DNA of 64,000 bases from Acinetobacter nectaris CIP 110549 (GTDB taxonomy: Bacteria > Pseudomonadota > Gammaproteobacteria > Pseudomonadales > Moraxellaceae): NCBI RefSeq assembly GCF_000488215.1, contig NZ_KI530723.1, forward strand, positions 1 through 64,000, read 5' to 3'. Below, piece by piece: positions 1 to 13,300 of this stretch. Position 1 is the first letter of the stretch. Each line of letters starts with the position of its first letter. The translations under genes were made by a program, and so were the position numbers. A model generated the notes under the pieces. It did no database searches and had not been told where the DNA came from. It saw only the letters and a list, made by a program, of their open reading frames with translations.

Positions 1-2003
<2,003 letters not shown>

Positions 2004-2375
2004 TATACAACCCCAAACAGTCGCTTACGCGAACTTCAAGGTGTACAGCTTCAATCTCATACCAAAACGCTTGATTCAGTTAATTTGCTAGTTCTCATCT
2101 CATTTCAAGTTGCTTTAATGTGAAATTAATTAAAATTTCAATTAAAACGCTTCAAAATGTATGAGTGAACAATTTTATTTCAGACTCAAATTGAATAATC
2201 TGTTAATGATTTAACATGCCTTCGTCAGGTCATGTACTGTGATTACTCACAGAGGTTAATATCAAGGTGGCGTAGTATACGCAATCTTTCTACTAAACTC
2301 TATAAGCAAATAAGCTGTTTGCTTATTTATTAGCTTAACTTTAATTAAATTGAAATATCAATCTGATTAAAATCA
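2004..2375 (-). other. rRNA internal transcribed spacer (tRNA-Ala to 23S)
   Basis: This AT-rich 372-base stretch separates tRNA-Ala from 23S and is transcribed as part of the rRNA precursor. It should contain the 5' half of the 23S processing stem and an antitermination boxA; I could not identify a convincing boxA by eye. No protein-coding potential is apparent. Confidence 0.8.
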
Positions 2376-2451
2376 TGGTGGAGACTAGGAGAGTCGAACT
2401 CCTGACCTCCTGCGTGCAAAGCAGGCGCTCTACCAACTAAGCTAAGTCCCC
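2376..2451 (-). tRNA. tRNA-Ala (anticodon TGC)
   Basis: The reverse strand starts GGGGACTTAGCTTAGTTGG, has anticodon loop CTTTGCACG (anticodon TGC), T-arm GTTCGACTC and an encoded CCA end. Its length is 76 nt. It sits in the 16S-23S spacer, the usual place for tRNA-Ala, downstream of tRNA-Ile. Confidence 0.98.
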
Positions 2452-2492
2452 AGCTTAAAATCATTTCGAATTGTACATTATCTTCTAGTCTT

Positions 2493-2569
<77 letters not shown>

Positions 2570-2583
2570 TCAGATAATATACC

Positions 2584-2609
2584 GAAGAACAACTTGTTGT
2601 GGATTCTTA
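2584..2609 (-). other. 16S precursor processing stem, 3' arm
   Basis: Just past the 16S 3' end, this segment is the near-perfect reverse complement of the leader segment at 4297-4321. In the rRNA precursor the two would pair to form the long stem enclosing 16S that RNase III cleaves. The match covers about 25 bases with one extra base and one or two mismatches, so pairing is visible directly in the sequence. Confidence 0.85.
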
Positions 2610-2628
2610 CCAAGTCTCACCTTTTCGT

Positions 2629-4166
<1,538 letters not shown>

Positions 4167-9329: not shown

Positions 9330-12095
9330 ATGATGCCACCTTTTGTTTTGGTTGATGGGTCTTATTTTTTATTTCGAGCATATCATGCTATTCCTCCTCT
9401 TACGACATCGACAGGACTGCACACCAATGCGATTCGAGGAGCGATTGCTGCGATTCAAAAATTAATGCGCCGCATTGAGCCAACGCATATGGCTGTCATT
9501 TTTGATACTCCTGAACCAACATTTCGCCATCAACTTTCTCCTATTTATAAAGGTGATCGTCCTGCAATGCCTGATGACTTATCAGAGCAAATTCCATATT
9601 TACATGCGCTCATTCGTGCTTTAGGTATTCCTTTATATTCTCTTGCAGGTGCAGAAGCCGATGATGTCATTGGAACCCTAACCAAACATGCTGAAAAAGA
9701 AGGTCATAATGTGCTTATCTCTACAGGAGATAAAGATATGGCACAGCTTGTCAATGAACGTGTTAAACTTGAAGACAGTTTTAAAGAGCGTGTTCTTGAT
9801 GTAGACGGCGTATTTGAAAAATTTGGCGTATGGCCACATCAAATCATCGATTATTTAACGCTTATGGGTGATGCATCTGATGGGATTTTGGGTGTGCCTG
9901 GTGTTGGCGCAAAAACCGCTGCGAAGCTACTCAATGAATACGAATGCTTAGGACGTATTTTAGAAAATGTAGATAATATTAAAGGTCGAGTTGGAAAAAA
10001 TCTAAAAGAGCATGTAGAAACAATTGCTATTGACCATCAACTCGCAAGCATTGTTTGCGATTTAGATTTATCATTAGAATGGAATGACTTAGAACTTCAG
10101 AACCCAAATACCAATGAGTTACGTAAGCTTTATACCGAATTAGAGTTTCGTAATCAGCTGCAATCTTTAGATCATCCCAACAATCCAAATAGCAAAACCT
10201 ATAAACAAAATACTCAAGCCATTGTAAAACAAGATGCAGTCACAACTCAGAATGATATAGACCAAGCAACTGCAACAAGTCAAGATGACCAACTAGGGCA
10301 ATCAACTTACCATACAGTGCTGACCCAAGATGACTGGAACCCCCTACTCACACGCATGCAAAATGCTGAGAAGTTCGCAATTGATACAGAAACGACTCAT
10401 CTAGATTATCGTTTTGCAGAAATGGTTGGTTTTTCAATCGCATTTGATTCAAAAGATGCCTACTATGTTCCTTTTGTACATGATTACGAAAATGCACCGA
10501 TGCAGTTAGACCGAGATCGGATACTGCAAGAAATTAAACCGATTATTGAAAACCCAAACATTAAAAAAATTGGTCATCACCTAAAATATGATGCTCATAT
10601 ATTTTCTAACCATGGTATCCATTTACAAGGTTGGTATTTTGATACCATGCTTGCATCTTATGTGTTTAATTCAACAGCAACACGTCATGGTATGGATGAC
10701 GTTGCTCGTTTGTACTTGAGTCACTTAAATACAACTTTTGAGCAAATTGCAGGTAAAGGTGCAAAGCAAAAAACATTTAATCAAATCGAATTAAGTATTG
10801 CTGGACACTATGCAGCTGAAGATGCACACGTAACATGGCGTTTATATGAAGTGCTCAATGAAAAGCTAAAGGACTCTCCCGAACTTCTGAATATTTTACA
10901 CAATGTAGAAATGCCTGTTGCTTCAATACTTACGCAAATGGAAGAAGTAGGTATTCAACTTGACCCTGATTTTCTAAGTAAATTAAGTGGTGAGTTTTCC
11001 ATTACCATGCAGTCTCTAGAAGAAAAAGCCATAGAAATTGCTGGAGAAAGCTTCAATATTTCCTCACCAAAACAAGTTGGAGAGGTCATCTTCGATAAGC
11101 TTGGTGTAAAAGGTGGGAAAAAAACAGCGTCAGGGCAATATAGTACAAGTGAAAGTGTTTTAGAAAAATTAGAGCACCCTATCGCAGAAATTATATTAGA
11201 GCATCGGGGATTAGCCAAACTCAAAAGTACTTATACAGATCGTTTAGTTGAACAAGCAAATAAAGATACCATGCGTGTTCATACAAGCTATCACCAAGCG
11301 AATACAGCAACTGGTCGCCTTTCATCATCAGATCCTAACTTACAAAATATTCCCATTCGTGGAGAAATTGGTCGACAAATCCGTAAAGCATTCATTGCAC
11401 CTCAAGGAAAAGTCATTCTTGCTGCCGATTATTCACAAATAGAATTACGTCTAATGGCTCATTTTTCACAAGATGAAGCACTGATAGATGCTTTTAACAA
11501 TGGACAGGATATTCACCAACGTACTGCGGCCGAAGTTTTAGGTATTGCTCTAGATGAGGTTACATCTGATCAGCGCCGTCAAGCTAAAGCTGTTAATTTT
11601 GGACTTCTCTACGGCATGTCAGAATTTGGGTTGACACGTCAACTCGGCTTTACGCGTGAAGAATCCCGCGCATATATCAAACAATACTTTCACCGCTATC
11701 CAGGTATTTATGAATATATGCAAAGTACAAGACAAGTCGCTTTAGAACAAGGCTTTGTTGAAACTGTACTGGGACGTAGACTCTATACACCTGATATTAA
11801 TGCTAGAAATGTCATGGTGCGAAAAGGGGCTGAACGTGCTGCCATTAATGCACCATTACAAGGAAGCGCTGCCGACATCATCAAACTTGCAATGATTGAA
11901 GTAGATAAAAACATTCCTAAAGAACAAGCAACGCTACTTTTACAAGTACACGATGAACTCGTATTTGAAGCAGACCCTGCATATGTCGATCAGCTTATCC
12001 CACAAATTAAAGAAGTCATGTCGTCTGTACTAAAACTTTCTGTACCTCTAGATGTAGAGGTTGGCTTGGGCAATAACTGGGATGAAGCACATTAA
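9330..12095 (+). CDS. polA: DNA polymerase I
   Basis: This full-length enzyme (921 aa) fills gaps and removes primers in replication and repair. Domains in order are the 5'-3' nuclease (about 1-300, with DGSYFLFRAYHAIPP at the start and GVPGVGAKTA in the helix-hairpin-helix), the 3'-5' exonuclease (about 340-510, with intact DTETT near residue 353) and the polymerase domain (about 520-921, with DYSQIELR, the O-helix region RRQAKAVNFGLLYG and motif C VHDELVFE near 873). The exonuclease acidic residues are present, so proofreading should be active. GAGGA precedes the ATG pair by about 6 bases. It is transcribed alone; a likely small RNA gene follows it. Confidence 0.98.
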   Translation: MMPPFVLVDGSYFLFRAYHAIPPLTTSTGLHTNAIRGAIAAIQKLMRRIEPTHMAVIFDTPEPTFRHQLSPIYKGDRPAMPDDLSEQIPYLHALIRALGIPLYSLAGAEADDVIGTLTKHAEKEGHNVLISTGDKDMAQLVNERVKLEDSFKERVLDVDGVFEKFGVWPHQIIDYLTLMGDASDGILGVPGVGAKTAAKLLNEYECLGRILENVDNIKGRVGKNLKEHVETIAIDHQLASIVCDLDLSLEWNDLELQNPNTNELRKLYTELEFRNQLQSLDHPNNPNSKTYKQNTQAIVKQDAVTTQNDIDQATATSQDDQLGQSTYHTVLTQDDWNPLLTRMQNAEKFAIDTETTHLDYRFAEMVGFSIAFDSKDAYYVPFVHDYENAPMQLDRDRILQEIKPIIENPNIKKIGHHLKYDAHIFSNHGIHLQGWYFDTMLASYVFNSTATRHGMDDVARLYLSHLNTTFEQIAGKGAKQKTFNQIELSIAGHYAAEDAHVTWRLYEVLNEKLKDSPELLNILHNVEMPVASILTQMEEVGIQLDPDFLSKLSGEFSITMQSLEEKAIEIAGESFNISSPKQVGEVIFDKLGVKGGKKTASGQYSTSESVLEKLEHPIAEIILEHRGLAKLKSTYTDRLVEQANKDTMRVHTSYHQANTATGRLSSSDPNLQNIPIRGEIGRQIRKAFIAPQGKVILAADYSQIELRLMAHFSQDEALIDAFNNGQDIHQRTAAEVLGIALDEVTSDQRRQAKAVNFGLLYGMSEFGLTRQLGFTREESRAYIKQYFHRYPGIYEYMQSTRQVALEQGFVETVLGRRLYTPDINARNVMVRKGAERAAINAPLQGSAADIIKLAMIEVDKNIPKEQATLLLQVHDELVFEADPAYVDQLIPQIKEVMSSVLKLSVPLDVEVGLGNNWDEAH

Positions 12096-12159
12096 GCAGA
12101 TTTTAATGCAACAAAACATTGCACAAATAATCAGCTTATCTATTCCTATGTTAGGATAA

Positions 12160-12281
12160 ATGATATAGCACAGTTGCTGTGCTATATCTCAGCCTTGAGT
12201 GAAACAGCTTATTGAGTAAATCTCCAGTCAATAAGTTTATACTGTATGGTCTTTCTTCTTTCTGAAGTTAGACCTTTTTTT
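12160..12281 (+). ncRNA. Putative small RNA downstream of polA
   Basis: The 188-base gap behind polA has no reading frame but has a clear RNA layout. A perfect 12-bp inverted repeat with a 3-base loop lies at 12162-12188 (GATATAGCACAG / CTGTGCTATATC), followed by about 60 unpaired-looking bases and a strong terminator at 12248-12281. The position directly behind polA is where Spot 42 (spf) lies in enterics and ErsA in Pseudomonas, so a small RNA would be syntenic. Only a weak -10 (TAGGAT, 12152-12157) is visible, so it could be an independent transcript or be processed from the polA 3' UTR. The 5' end is a guess. Confidence 0.5.
12248..12281 (+). terminator. Rho-independent terminator (polA / small RNA)
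   Basis: GGTCT pairs with AGACC, with an inner CTTC/GAAG stem separated by a TT/TT internal loop, followed by seven T residues. On the reverse strand no T-run follows, so it serves rightward transcription. Confidence 0.85.
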
Positions 12282-12283
12282 AT

Positions 12284-13300
12284 TTATACAAGCTGAATAA
12301 TATCGATCGTTGGTCTTACACGAAAACGGAATGGTACACCAACCATACCCGTACCCACAGTCACATAAACATCTGCATTTCTATGCCGATACAAACCACG
12401 CTTATGTCCTAAAATAGATGCCTTCTTCATCATATAATTCGTAAACCATGGCAATTCGACTTGCCCACCATGTGTATGCCCTGCAAGCATTAATGGCTTT
12501 ATCGGAAGCTGAGGTACCATTTCTACAGTATCAGGGTTATGTGAAAGAATAATCCATGGTTTATCTTGTGGTAAATCTGGCATGAAGCGCATCTCTGATT
12601 TACCAGCCCATAAATCACCAATACCAATGAGTCTAAACTGATCAAACTCAATGATTTTTCCTTCAATATCCATCACCTCATTATGATAAAGTGCATGACT
12701 TAGAAGCTGTTGAATTGGTGGCCCTGGGTATTCCTCATCATGATTGCCACAAACAGAGTAAACAGGTGCCTCAATATTTTTAAGAATATTTAACTCTTCT
12801 TTTAAACTACTTTCAGGCTCATATGTCCAATCGCCTGCAACAACAACAATGTCAGGTTTTTCAATATTAATTTTTTGAACAATTTTACGTAGCTGTGCCT
12901 CATGACCTGAAAATAACCCTATATGTAAATCTGCAATCAATGCAATTTTAAAAGGCTTCTTTTCATGTTTATCGTTATCGTCATTAAAAGCATACGTTGT
13001 ATGCTTAACACACAACCAGTTTGGCTCAATAAAGCGTGCATAAATTAATATACCAATTAGCACTATAGATATTAAAGCCGTTGCAATTGAAATACTACCT
13101 AGATAAAAAGTAGAAAACACCCATAATAGGAGTGGAAAAAGTAAATATGACTGATAAAAAACTGATAAATGTATAAAAGCTTTAAATGGATGAATTGTTT
13201 CTGTTTTTGCTTGGCTTCTCCAAGCCTGAATCACTGCCCATACAGCAACAATCACAAAAATAATATTCAAAAAATCATGAATTGAATTAGAATTCCACAT
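12284..13300 (-). CDS. Membrane-anchored calcineurin-like metallophosphoesterase
   Basis: The N-terminal third carries two to three membrane segments (about residues 8-26, 45-65, 70-90). The metallophosphoesterase domain follows from about 115, with all signature motifs: ADLHIG, GDWTYEP, GNHDEEYPG, SHNPD and AGHTHGGQ. This arrangement matches YkuE/UDP-2,3-diacylglucosamine-hydrolase-like membrane phosphoesterases, but the substrate cannot be told from sequence. At 338 aa it is complete. It is transcribed leftward, converging on the terminator behind polA, and divergent from the PLD lipoprotein gene 81 bases away. Confidence 0.85.
   Translation of the reverse strand: MWNSNSIHDFLNIIFVIVAVWAVIQAWRSQAKTETIHPFKAFIHLSVFYQSYLLFPLLLWVFSTFYLGSISIATALISIVLIGILIYARFIEPNWLCVKHTTYAFNDDNDKHEKKPFKIALIADLHIGLFSGHEAQLRKIVQKINIEKPDIVVVAGDWTYEPESSLKEELNILKNIEAPVYSVCGNHDEEYPGPPIQQLLSHALYHNEVMDIEGKIIEFDQFRLIGIGDLWAGKSEMRFMPDLPQDKPWIILSHNPDTVEMVPQLPIKPLMLAGHTHGGQVELPWFTNYMMKKASILGHKRGLYRHRNADVYVTVGTGMVGVPFRFRVRPTIDIIQLV

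Follow-up and report, generated by a model that had tools for sequence, protein, structure and literature searches.

The window, the 64,000 nucleotides that open contig NZ_KI530723.1 of Acinetobacter nectaris CIP 110549, carries polA and, convergent to it, a gene for a calcineurin-like metallophosphoesterase, the two being separated by a gap at positions 12096-12283 (Table 1). Upstream of the polA region, on the minus strand, positions 1-4165 hold a partial rRNA operon (16S, two tRNAs and a 23S cut at the window edge), and a search of the whole window against Rfam at the gathering threshold returned rRNA and tRNA only. The gap contains no open reading frame of at least 60 aa, in agreement with a preliminary description of this DNA, which had placed a probable small RNA gene at 12160-12281. 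Arranged in order along the gap are a 17-bp box (TGCAACAAAAYATTGCA), an extended -10 element, a 12-bp hairpin, a second, 10-bp hairpin and a terminator that ends in seven T. The extent first given covers the RNA part; the feature as a whole begins further upstream, at the box. A peptide encoded by the RNA was considered and rejected: the longest frame within the window's RNA (starts ATG, GTG or TTG) has 17 codons, the longest frames across the carriers described below range from 15 to 26 codons, and likeness between them is seen only for A. rathckeae versus A. boissieri.

Table 1. Features in and around the gap behind polA (positions in the window)
Feature	Position	Strand	Details	Basis
polA	9330-12095	+		Pfam DNA_pol_A
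Upstream box	12107-12123	+	TGCAACAAAACATTGCA, inverted repeat TGCAA-N7-TTGCA, 17 bp	Conservation behind polA
Extended -10	12149-12157	+	TGTTAGGAT, without a -35	Kept in position across six species
5' hairpin	12162-12188	+	12162-12173 pairs with 12177-12188; perfect 12 bp, 3-nt loop	
Predicted small RNA	12163-12281	+	About 119 nt	Start inferred from the -10
Second hairpin	12206-12237	+	12206-12215 pairs with 12228-12237; 10 bp, CUCC in loop	CUCC and covariation
Intrinsic terminator	12248-12281	+	Stem 12248-12274, seven T at 12275-12281	
Calcineurin-like metallophosphoesterase gene	12284-13300	-	Convergent to polA, stop at 12284	

The predicted RNA folds far better than expected by chance. A 124-nt segment reaches -40.5 kcal/mol, against -22.1 ± 3.3 kcal/mol in dinucleotide shuffles (z -5.5, none of 200 as low), the RNA taken from 12163 gives a z of -5.3 (again 0/200), and the full RNAs of the six core species introduced below range from -3.4 to -7.9, with 0 of 200 shuffles as low in each case. 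The 12-bp hairpin is as perfect as had been described, and in all six species a 5' hairpin starts 4-6 nt past the -10, with sequences that differ between them. This hairpin is the least conserved part of the element: it beats shuffles clearly only in some species (shuffles as low, out of 200: 1 in the window, 7 in A. pollinis, 24 in A. rathckeae, 1 in A. boissieri, 20 in A. apis and 53 in the genome G005) and is absent from a seventh carrier, the genome G144. The linker of about 60 bases noted behind it does have that length (59 nt, 12189-12247) but is not unstructured, as it holds the second hairpin, whose loop reads GUAAAUCUCCAG and presents a CUCC at 12222-12225 that is kept in all seven species. 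As for the terminator, said to be strong, its run of seven T stands and its strength does not: the stem is modest (5 bp, an internal loop, 4 bp), and a simple terminator scan left it unflagged, the single match of that scan being the 12-bp palindrome, on the minus strand.

The arrangement is shared by a small number of relatives. Among 20 named Acinetobacter loci read behind polA, it is present in four (A. pollinis, A. rathckeae, A. boissieri and A. apis) and lacking in 16, many of which have little beyond a terminator; G005 is a fifth relative that has it. Over 390 nt, four genome copies (G069, G079, G009 and G003) show no difference from the four named species, so that six distinct species can be counted, window included, the closest to the window among the genomes compared being A. 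pollinis (PolA C-terminus 91% identical over 119 aa). In all six, the box, the -10 at fixed spacing, the CUCC hairpin and the terminator follow polA in the same order. Judging from abstracts and from the habitat of some of the species, these six are a nectar- and bee-associated lineage of Acinetobacter, and the organism of the window would presumably share this habitat.

A BLAST search with a 201-bp segment against 175 genus genomes produced hits in five of them, the own genome included, and three of the four hits outside it span little beyond the box; the family would therefore be missed by sequence search alone. Among plasmid records, five from A. baumannii, apparently chromosomes, were matched by the polA coding end only. 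In the last 590 codons of polA, any two of the seven carriers agree at 34-46% of the fourfold-degenerate sites, and the core six share the same base in only 9 of 164 columns of this kind. Synonymous sites in these six species are nearly random, yet behind polA their boxes are identical except for one C/T position (16 of 17 columns invariant), and CUCC is invariant as well.

A covariance model (R1) of the second hairpin plus the terminator was built from the six core species and run against 173 genus genomes. The six training genomes obtained E-values of 1e-10 to 2e-14; the next best was G144, at 0.0017 for that genome, followed by 0.005 and weaker. G144 had been held out of the training, and its match (C3:36680-36780), directly behind polA (polA match C3:36841-37197), reads GGCTTATTGG-ATATACCCTCCAA-CCAATAAGCC followed by a terminator; its box is degenerate rather than canonical. 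It is the position that makes this a convincing case of a real copy, the E-value alone being unremarkable across 173 genomes. Matches at E ≤1 occur in 73 of the 173 genomes and seven were taken as real, which sets the carriers by R1 at 7/173 under strict filters that may miss weak copies. Beyond these seven, no R1 match lies behind polA where the place of polA is listed (compared by eye; G136, G070, G129, G147 and G029 are not listed), and 20 of the other matches, once folded, resemble ordinary terminators by eye and were set aside. In a family-wide sample of 149 genomes, in which G079 was presumably not drawn, eight matches at E ≤0.01 correspond to six carriers and two hits in other genera (E 0.004 and 0.007); the latter have no CUCC and no polA seen beside them, and were rejected.

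The stems of the element also covary. In the seven-sequence alignment, which was fitted to R1, 87.8% of cells pair and both-side changes affect 14 of the 19 pairs, against 7.1 in shuffles (0/500 as high) and 2-5 in slid controls, while further pair types stay within the shuffle range (231/500 as high). These both-side changes concern 5 of 9 modelled pairs in the second hairpin (95% of cells paired) and, across the seven species, 9 of 10 in the terminator (81% paired). RNAalifold folds the six core sequences into two helices; 11 of their 19 pairs carry changes on both sides in one sequence or more, and the covariation term is small (-0.36 kcal/mol). Compensatory changes across Acinetobacter had been proposed as a check in the preliminary description. 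They are seen in the terminator and the second hairpin; at the place of the 12-bp hairpin, the five core relatives have a hairpin of unrelated sequence. A PolA tree of 51 rows groups the six core carriers in a single clade (95/92) and puts G144 close to the base of the genus, in an order relative to the brisouii group that is not fixed. The RNA takes two changes on the best tree and one change in 46% of bootstrap trees, figures with which a single origin in the core clade plus G144 is still compatible. Given the conservation of box and promoter despite random synonymous sites, the held-out seventh copy and the covarying stems, a small RNA gene behind polA in the seven carriers is a well-supported prediction; together with the fold z-scores, these data uphold what had first been suspected from the window.

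Such a gene probably has its own promoter. The promoter had been called weak by eye, and a simple scan indeed finds no -35/-10 pair of the sigma-70 type (0, against 2.8 in shuffles), but the extended -10 kept in six species had been overlooked: the motif TGnTAnnAT follows the box after 24 bp in five species and after 25 bp in the window. An extended -10 without a -35, combined with a conserved inverted repeat near -48, would indicate an activated promoter, and the box, centred near that position, is a probable activator site. No DNA in the gap is better conserved than the box and the extended -10 at its fixed distance, which makes an own promoter likelier than the processing alternative raised at the outset, in which an sRNA devoid of promoter would be cut from the 3' UTR of the polA mRNA by cleavage of the RNase E type, with hairpins that protect it and a U7 tail that loads Hfq. 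A processed RNA would have no need of these elements, and the box folded as RNA forms a weak 5-bp hairpin only (-2.7 kcal/mol; z of -0.8 in one species and -0.7 in another). The missing -35 would suit processing, as would, weakly, the fact that no plus-strand terminator is flagged from the polA stop to 12248, the same scan missing the terminator at 12248 itself. Since none is flagged before that point, polA transcripts should read through the element and share its terminator, which probably ends the polA mRNA too. Weighed against the conserved promoter region, processing appears unlikely.

Exact copies of the 17-bp box number seven in the 173 genus genomes, six of them behind polA; the seventh (G112) precedes another gene, whose frame, as cut, has no family match. 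At up to one mismatch, a match is found in 57/173 genomes. When six genomes were searched with a degenerate form of the palindrome, the own genome gave 15 sites, and the reversed pattern, a control not matched in composition, gave 2 there. The notion of a regulon governed by the box was abandoned, none being visible: 13 of the 14 other TGCAA-N7-TTGCA sites of the own genome lie inside frames of at least 80 aa. One other palindrome site of this genome is flanked by a LysR-type gene on one side and a short-chain dehydrogenase on the other (named by eye). Comparison of the box with the sigma-54 consensus led to rejection of such a reading by eye, as the GG is absent and the spacing is off by one. 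In the brisouii group (L262, L265, L266, L267 and L269), a conserved TGCAACAAA(A/T)AG upstream of the sRNA Aar, discussed below, resembles the first ten bases of the box and agrees with it at 10/17 positions at best.

The A. brisouii group bears on two further explanations. In L026-L028, a bare terminator stands between polA and the like neighbour gene (by DNA likeness), a state from which one could argue that the element of the carriers is a mere stabiliser and terminator of the polA 3' UTR, with no trans-acting role, stem-loops that precede a terminator being common protectors of 3' ends. This view leaves the invariant CUCC loop, the box and the promoter element unexplained and is considered quite improbable. 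The bare terminator with a like neighbour points to an origin of the RNA ahead of an old polA terminator. The neighbour itself could be the object of a cis element, acting on the convergent metallophosphoesterase gene either through antisense overlap or through interference between transcripts. A convergent gene of similar length does follow the element in four relatives and G144, and in G005 by DNA likeness, and on the minus strand the 12-bp palindrome registers in the scan as a terminator-like sequence. The T-run, however, ends before the gene and does not reach into its coding part, the minus-strand tail of the palindrome is poor in T, and in the brisouii group the neighbour (by DNA likeness) exists without the element, all of which renders a cis function very hard to credit.

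Small RNAs behind polA are known from other bacteria. Spot 42 (spf) of Enterobacteria and Vibrionaceae, also located directly behind polA, resembles the polA RNA by its length of about 110 nt and its intrinsic terminator; its promoter is repressed by CRP and its downstream neighbour is engB (yihA), in place of the convergent metallophosphoesterase gene found here. ErsA, with a promoter that depends on sigma-22, is likewise an RNA with stem-loops behind polA. In Pseudomonas it sits in the polA-engB gap, according to passages of PMC8575079, and it is by the downstream neighbour, not by sequence, that the polA RNA is set apart from it. The extreme conservation of Spot 42, of which 91 of 109 nt are invariable in the set described in passages of PMC3295665, is not seen in the polA RNA. 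Over 12090-12300, Rfam at E ≤10 gave 12 sub-threshold matches, none of them Spot 42 (RF00021), and kinship with Spot 42 or another Rfam family was rejected for lack of a match; with no such match and with another neighbour, the polA RNA is not Spot 42. The initial idea that Acinetobacter keeps a counterpart of Spot 42 or ErsA is not supported at the level of the genus, considering the 7/173 genomes detected by R1, the 16 of 20 named loci that lack the RNA, and the absence of an Rfam match and of engB. The place behind polA can thus host an RNA without evident Spot 42 kinship. A literature search combining 'Acinetobacter nectaris' and 'small RNA' found nothing. An Acinetobacter RNA behind polA is unmentioned in the literature searched, and specifically in passages of PMC5538643, PMC12455925, PMC11617691, PMC11796373, PMC12153292, PMC11472050, PMC12802169, PMC5320573 and PMC11774029.

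The explanation judged likely is a clade-specific gene in the polA 3' region for a trans-acting sRNA of the repressor type. General attributes of such RNAs, namely an own promoter, a conserved unpaired seed and a U-tailed intrinsic terminator, are all present in the sequence and its predicted structure. Conserved directly are the box, the promoter element, the CUCC loop and the stems, as well as their order and position; from these we infer transcription, an activator, Hfq binding, targets and repression. In the mechanism proposed, a putative activator would bind the TGCAA-N7-TTGCA box near -48 and recruit RNA polymerase to the extended -10 promoter that lacks a -35. The transcript of about 119 nt would start at the foot of the 5' hairpin, end at the U7 terminator and probably be bound by Hfq. 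The CUCC in the loop of the second hairpin, proposed as an anti-Shine-Dalgarno seed, would then pair with GGAG in the Shine-Dalgarno sequences of target mRNAs and block their translation.

Trans-acting repression is proposed because a CUCC seed is proven in Aar and because C-rich loops directed against ribosome-binding sites are an established mode. Passages of PMC11472050 and PMC12802169 describe CUCC as the proven seed with which Aar, an Acinetobacter sRNA, sequesters ribosome-binding sites, those of carO and further mRNAs; in A. baumannii, Aar is about 100 nt long, with a 5' hairpin, 3' hairpins and a U tail. C-rich loops acting on G-rich ribosome-binding sites are described for the hairpins of S. 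aureus RNAIII, OxyS and Listeria LhrC in passages of PMC8383071; the polA RNA would follow the same working principle, with no claim of common ancestry. A search of the own genome for the target pattern TGGAGATT-N(1-9)-ATG gave 8 hits against 10 for the reversed control, i.e. no enrichment, and 4 of the 8 are at gene starts (proC, purD, rplS and nadC). At nadC (L356, G000:C24:76031-76045, minus strand), 11 bases over the Shine-Dalgarno sequence are perfectly complementary to the loop of the sRNA; with 10 hits in the reversed control, nadC as a target is a lead only. The RNA offers a candidate regulator in nectar and bee Acinetobacter whose seed, promoter and terminator are defined for direct tests.

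The likeness to Aar, as far as the passages on Aar go, comprises the same genus, a CUCC seed against ribosome-binding sites (in all seven species of the polA RNA), a 5' hairpin and 3' hairpins with a U tail. Differences exist too: the CUCC of Aar is described there as single-stranded near the 5' end, whereas that of the polA RNA occupies an internal hairpin loop. The CUCC match, being of four bases only, is no proof of kinship. The loci are distinct, Aar lying behind trpS in A. baylyi and A. baumannii; the trpS of the window genome, at G000:C1:882991, is followed by a truncated Aar. In genomes for which an R1 match and a trpS place are both listed, the two never coincide (compared by eye), the conserved Aar 3' half (CGTTGTT-TACGCA plus terminator) is not in the polA element by reading, and upstream of Aar no box is seen, except for the partial likeness in the brisouii group. 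Derivation of the polA RNA from Aar by duplication was rejected, no likeness being apparent by eye.

Aar was located through its place behind trpS and the sequence common to A. baylyi and A. lactucae, and was surveyed in 91 of the 172 genomes with a trpS match (172/173), made up of the 30 best matches, 60 genomes hand-picked from further down the ranking, and G005. In the Aar seed region, CUCC occurs in 0/7 carriers of the polA RNA: three copies are truncated, the Aar 3' half alone remaining (G000, G069 and G144), in three the 5' part is rewritten and contains a GCCCCC loop (G009, G079 and G005), and in G003 the locus is lost. Among non-carriers, CUCC is found upstream of the Aar core in 72/84 (69 by script within 70 nt and 3 by reading, a few being off the usual place); the remaining 12 divide into six with an Aar-like terminator without CUCC and six with no Aar in the stretch read. 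One scenario for these facts is a seed takeover, in which the nectar and bee lineage would have lost the Aar CUCC and the unrelated polA RNA, with the same anti-Shine-Dalgarno CUCC in a hairpin loop, would have taken over part of the Aar targets under a new activator. It is regarded as doubtful, as the carriers are essentially one clade plus G144 and 12 non-carriers are also without CUCC or Aar; moreover, four bases can coincide. If true, it would be a traceable case of sRNA replacement through a re-evolved seed of four bases, within a lineage whose habitat shifted to flowers.

Several details of the trpS locus deserve mention. Behind trpS in the window genome (G000:C1; L250 and L264), the Aar seed part is gone and a CUCC is present in the Aar terminator loop, which reads GGCTCCCC. 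At the same place, A. rathckeae, A. boissieri and G005 (L254, L255 and L257) have a rewritten Aar-like RNA with the hairpin GATAGGTCGCCCCCTATC, possibly a new C-rich loop. Six genomes in which the polA RNA is absent (G027, G071, G029, G153, G084 and G100) have Aar-like loci without CUCC behind trpS.

A side observation concerns metabolism. The succinyl-CoA synthetase alpha family TIGR01019 (sucD) is present in both A. lactucae and A. baylyi, and a gene resembling it by eye neighbours trpS in G012, a member of the brisouii group. This family has no match in the four carrier genomes searched (G000, G144, G009 and G069), and the carrier lineage may have lost this step of the TCA cycle.
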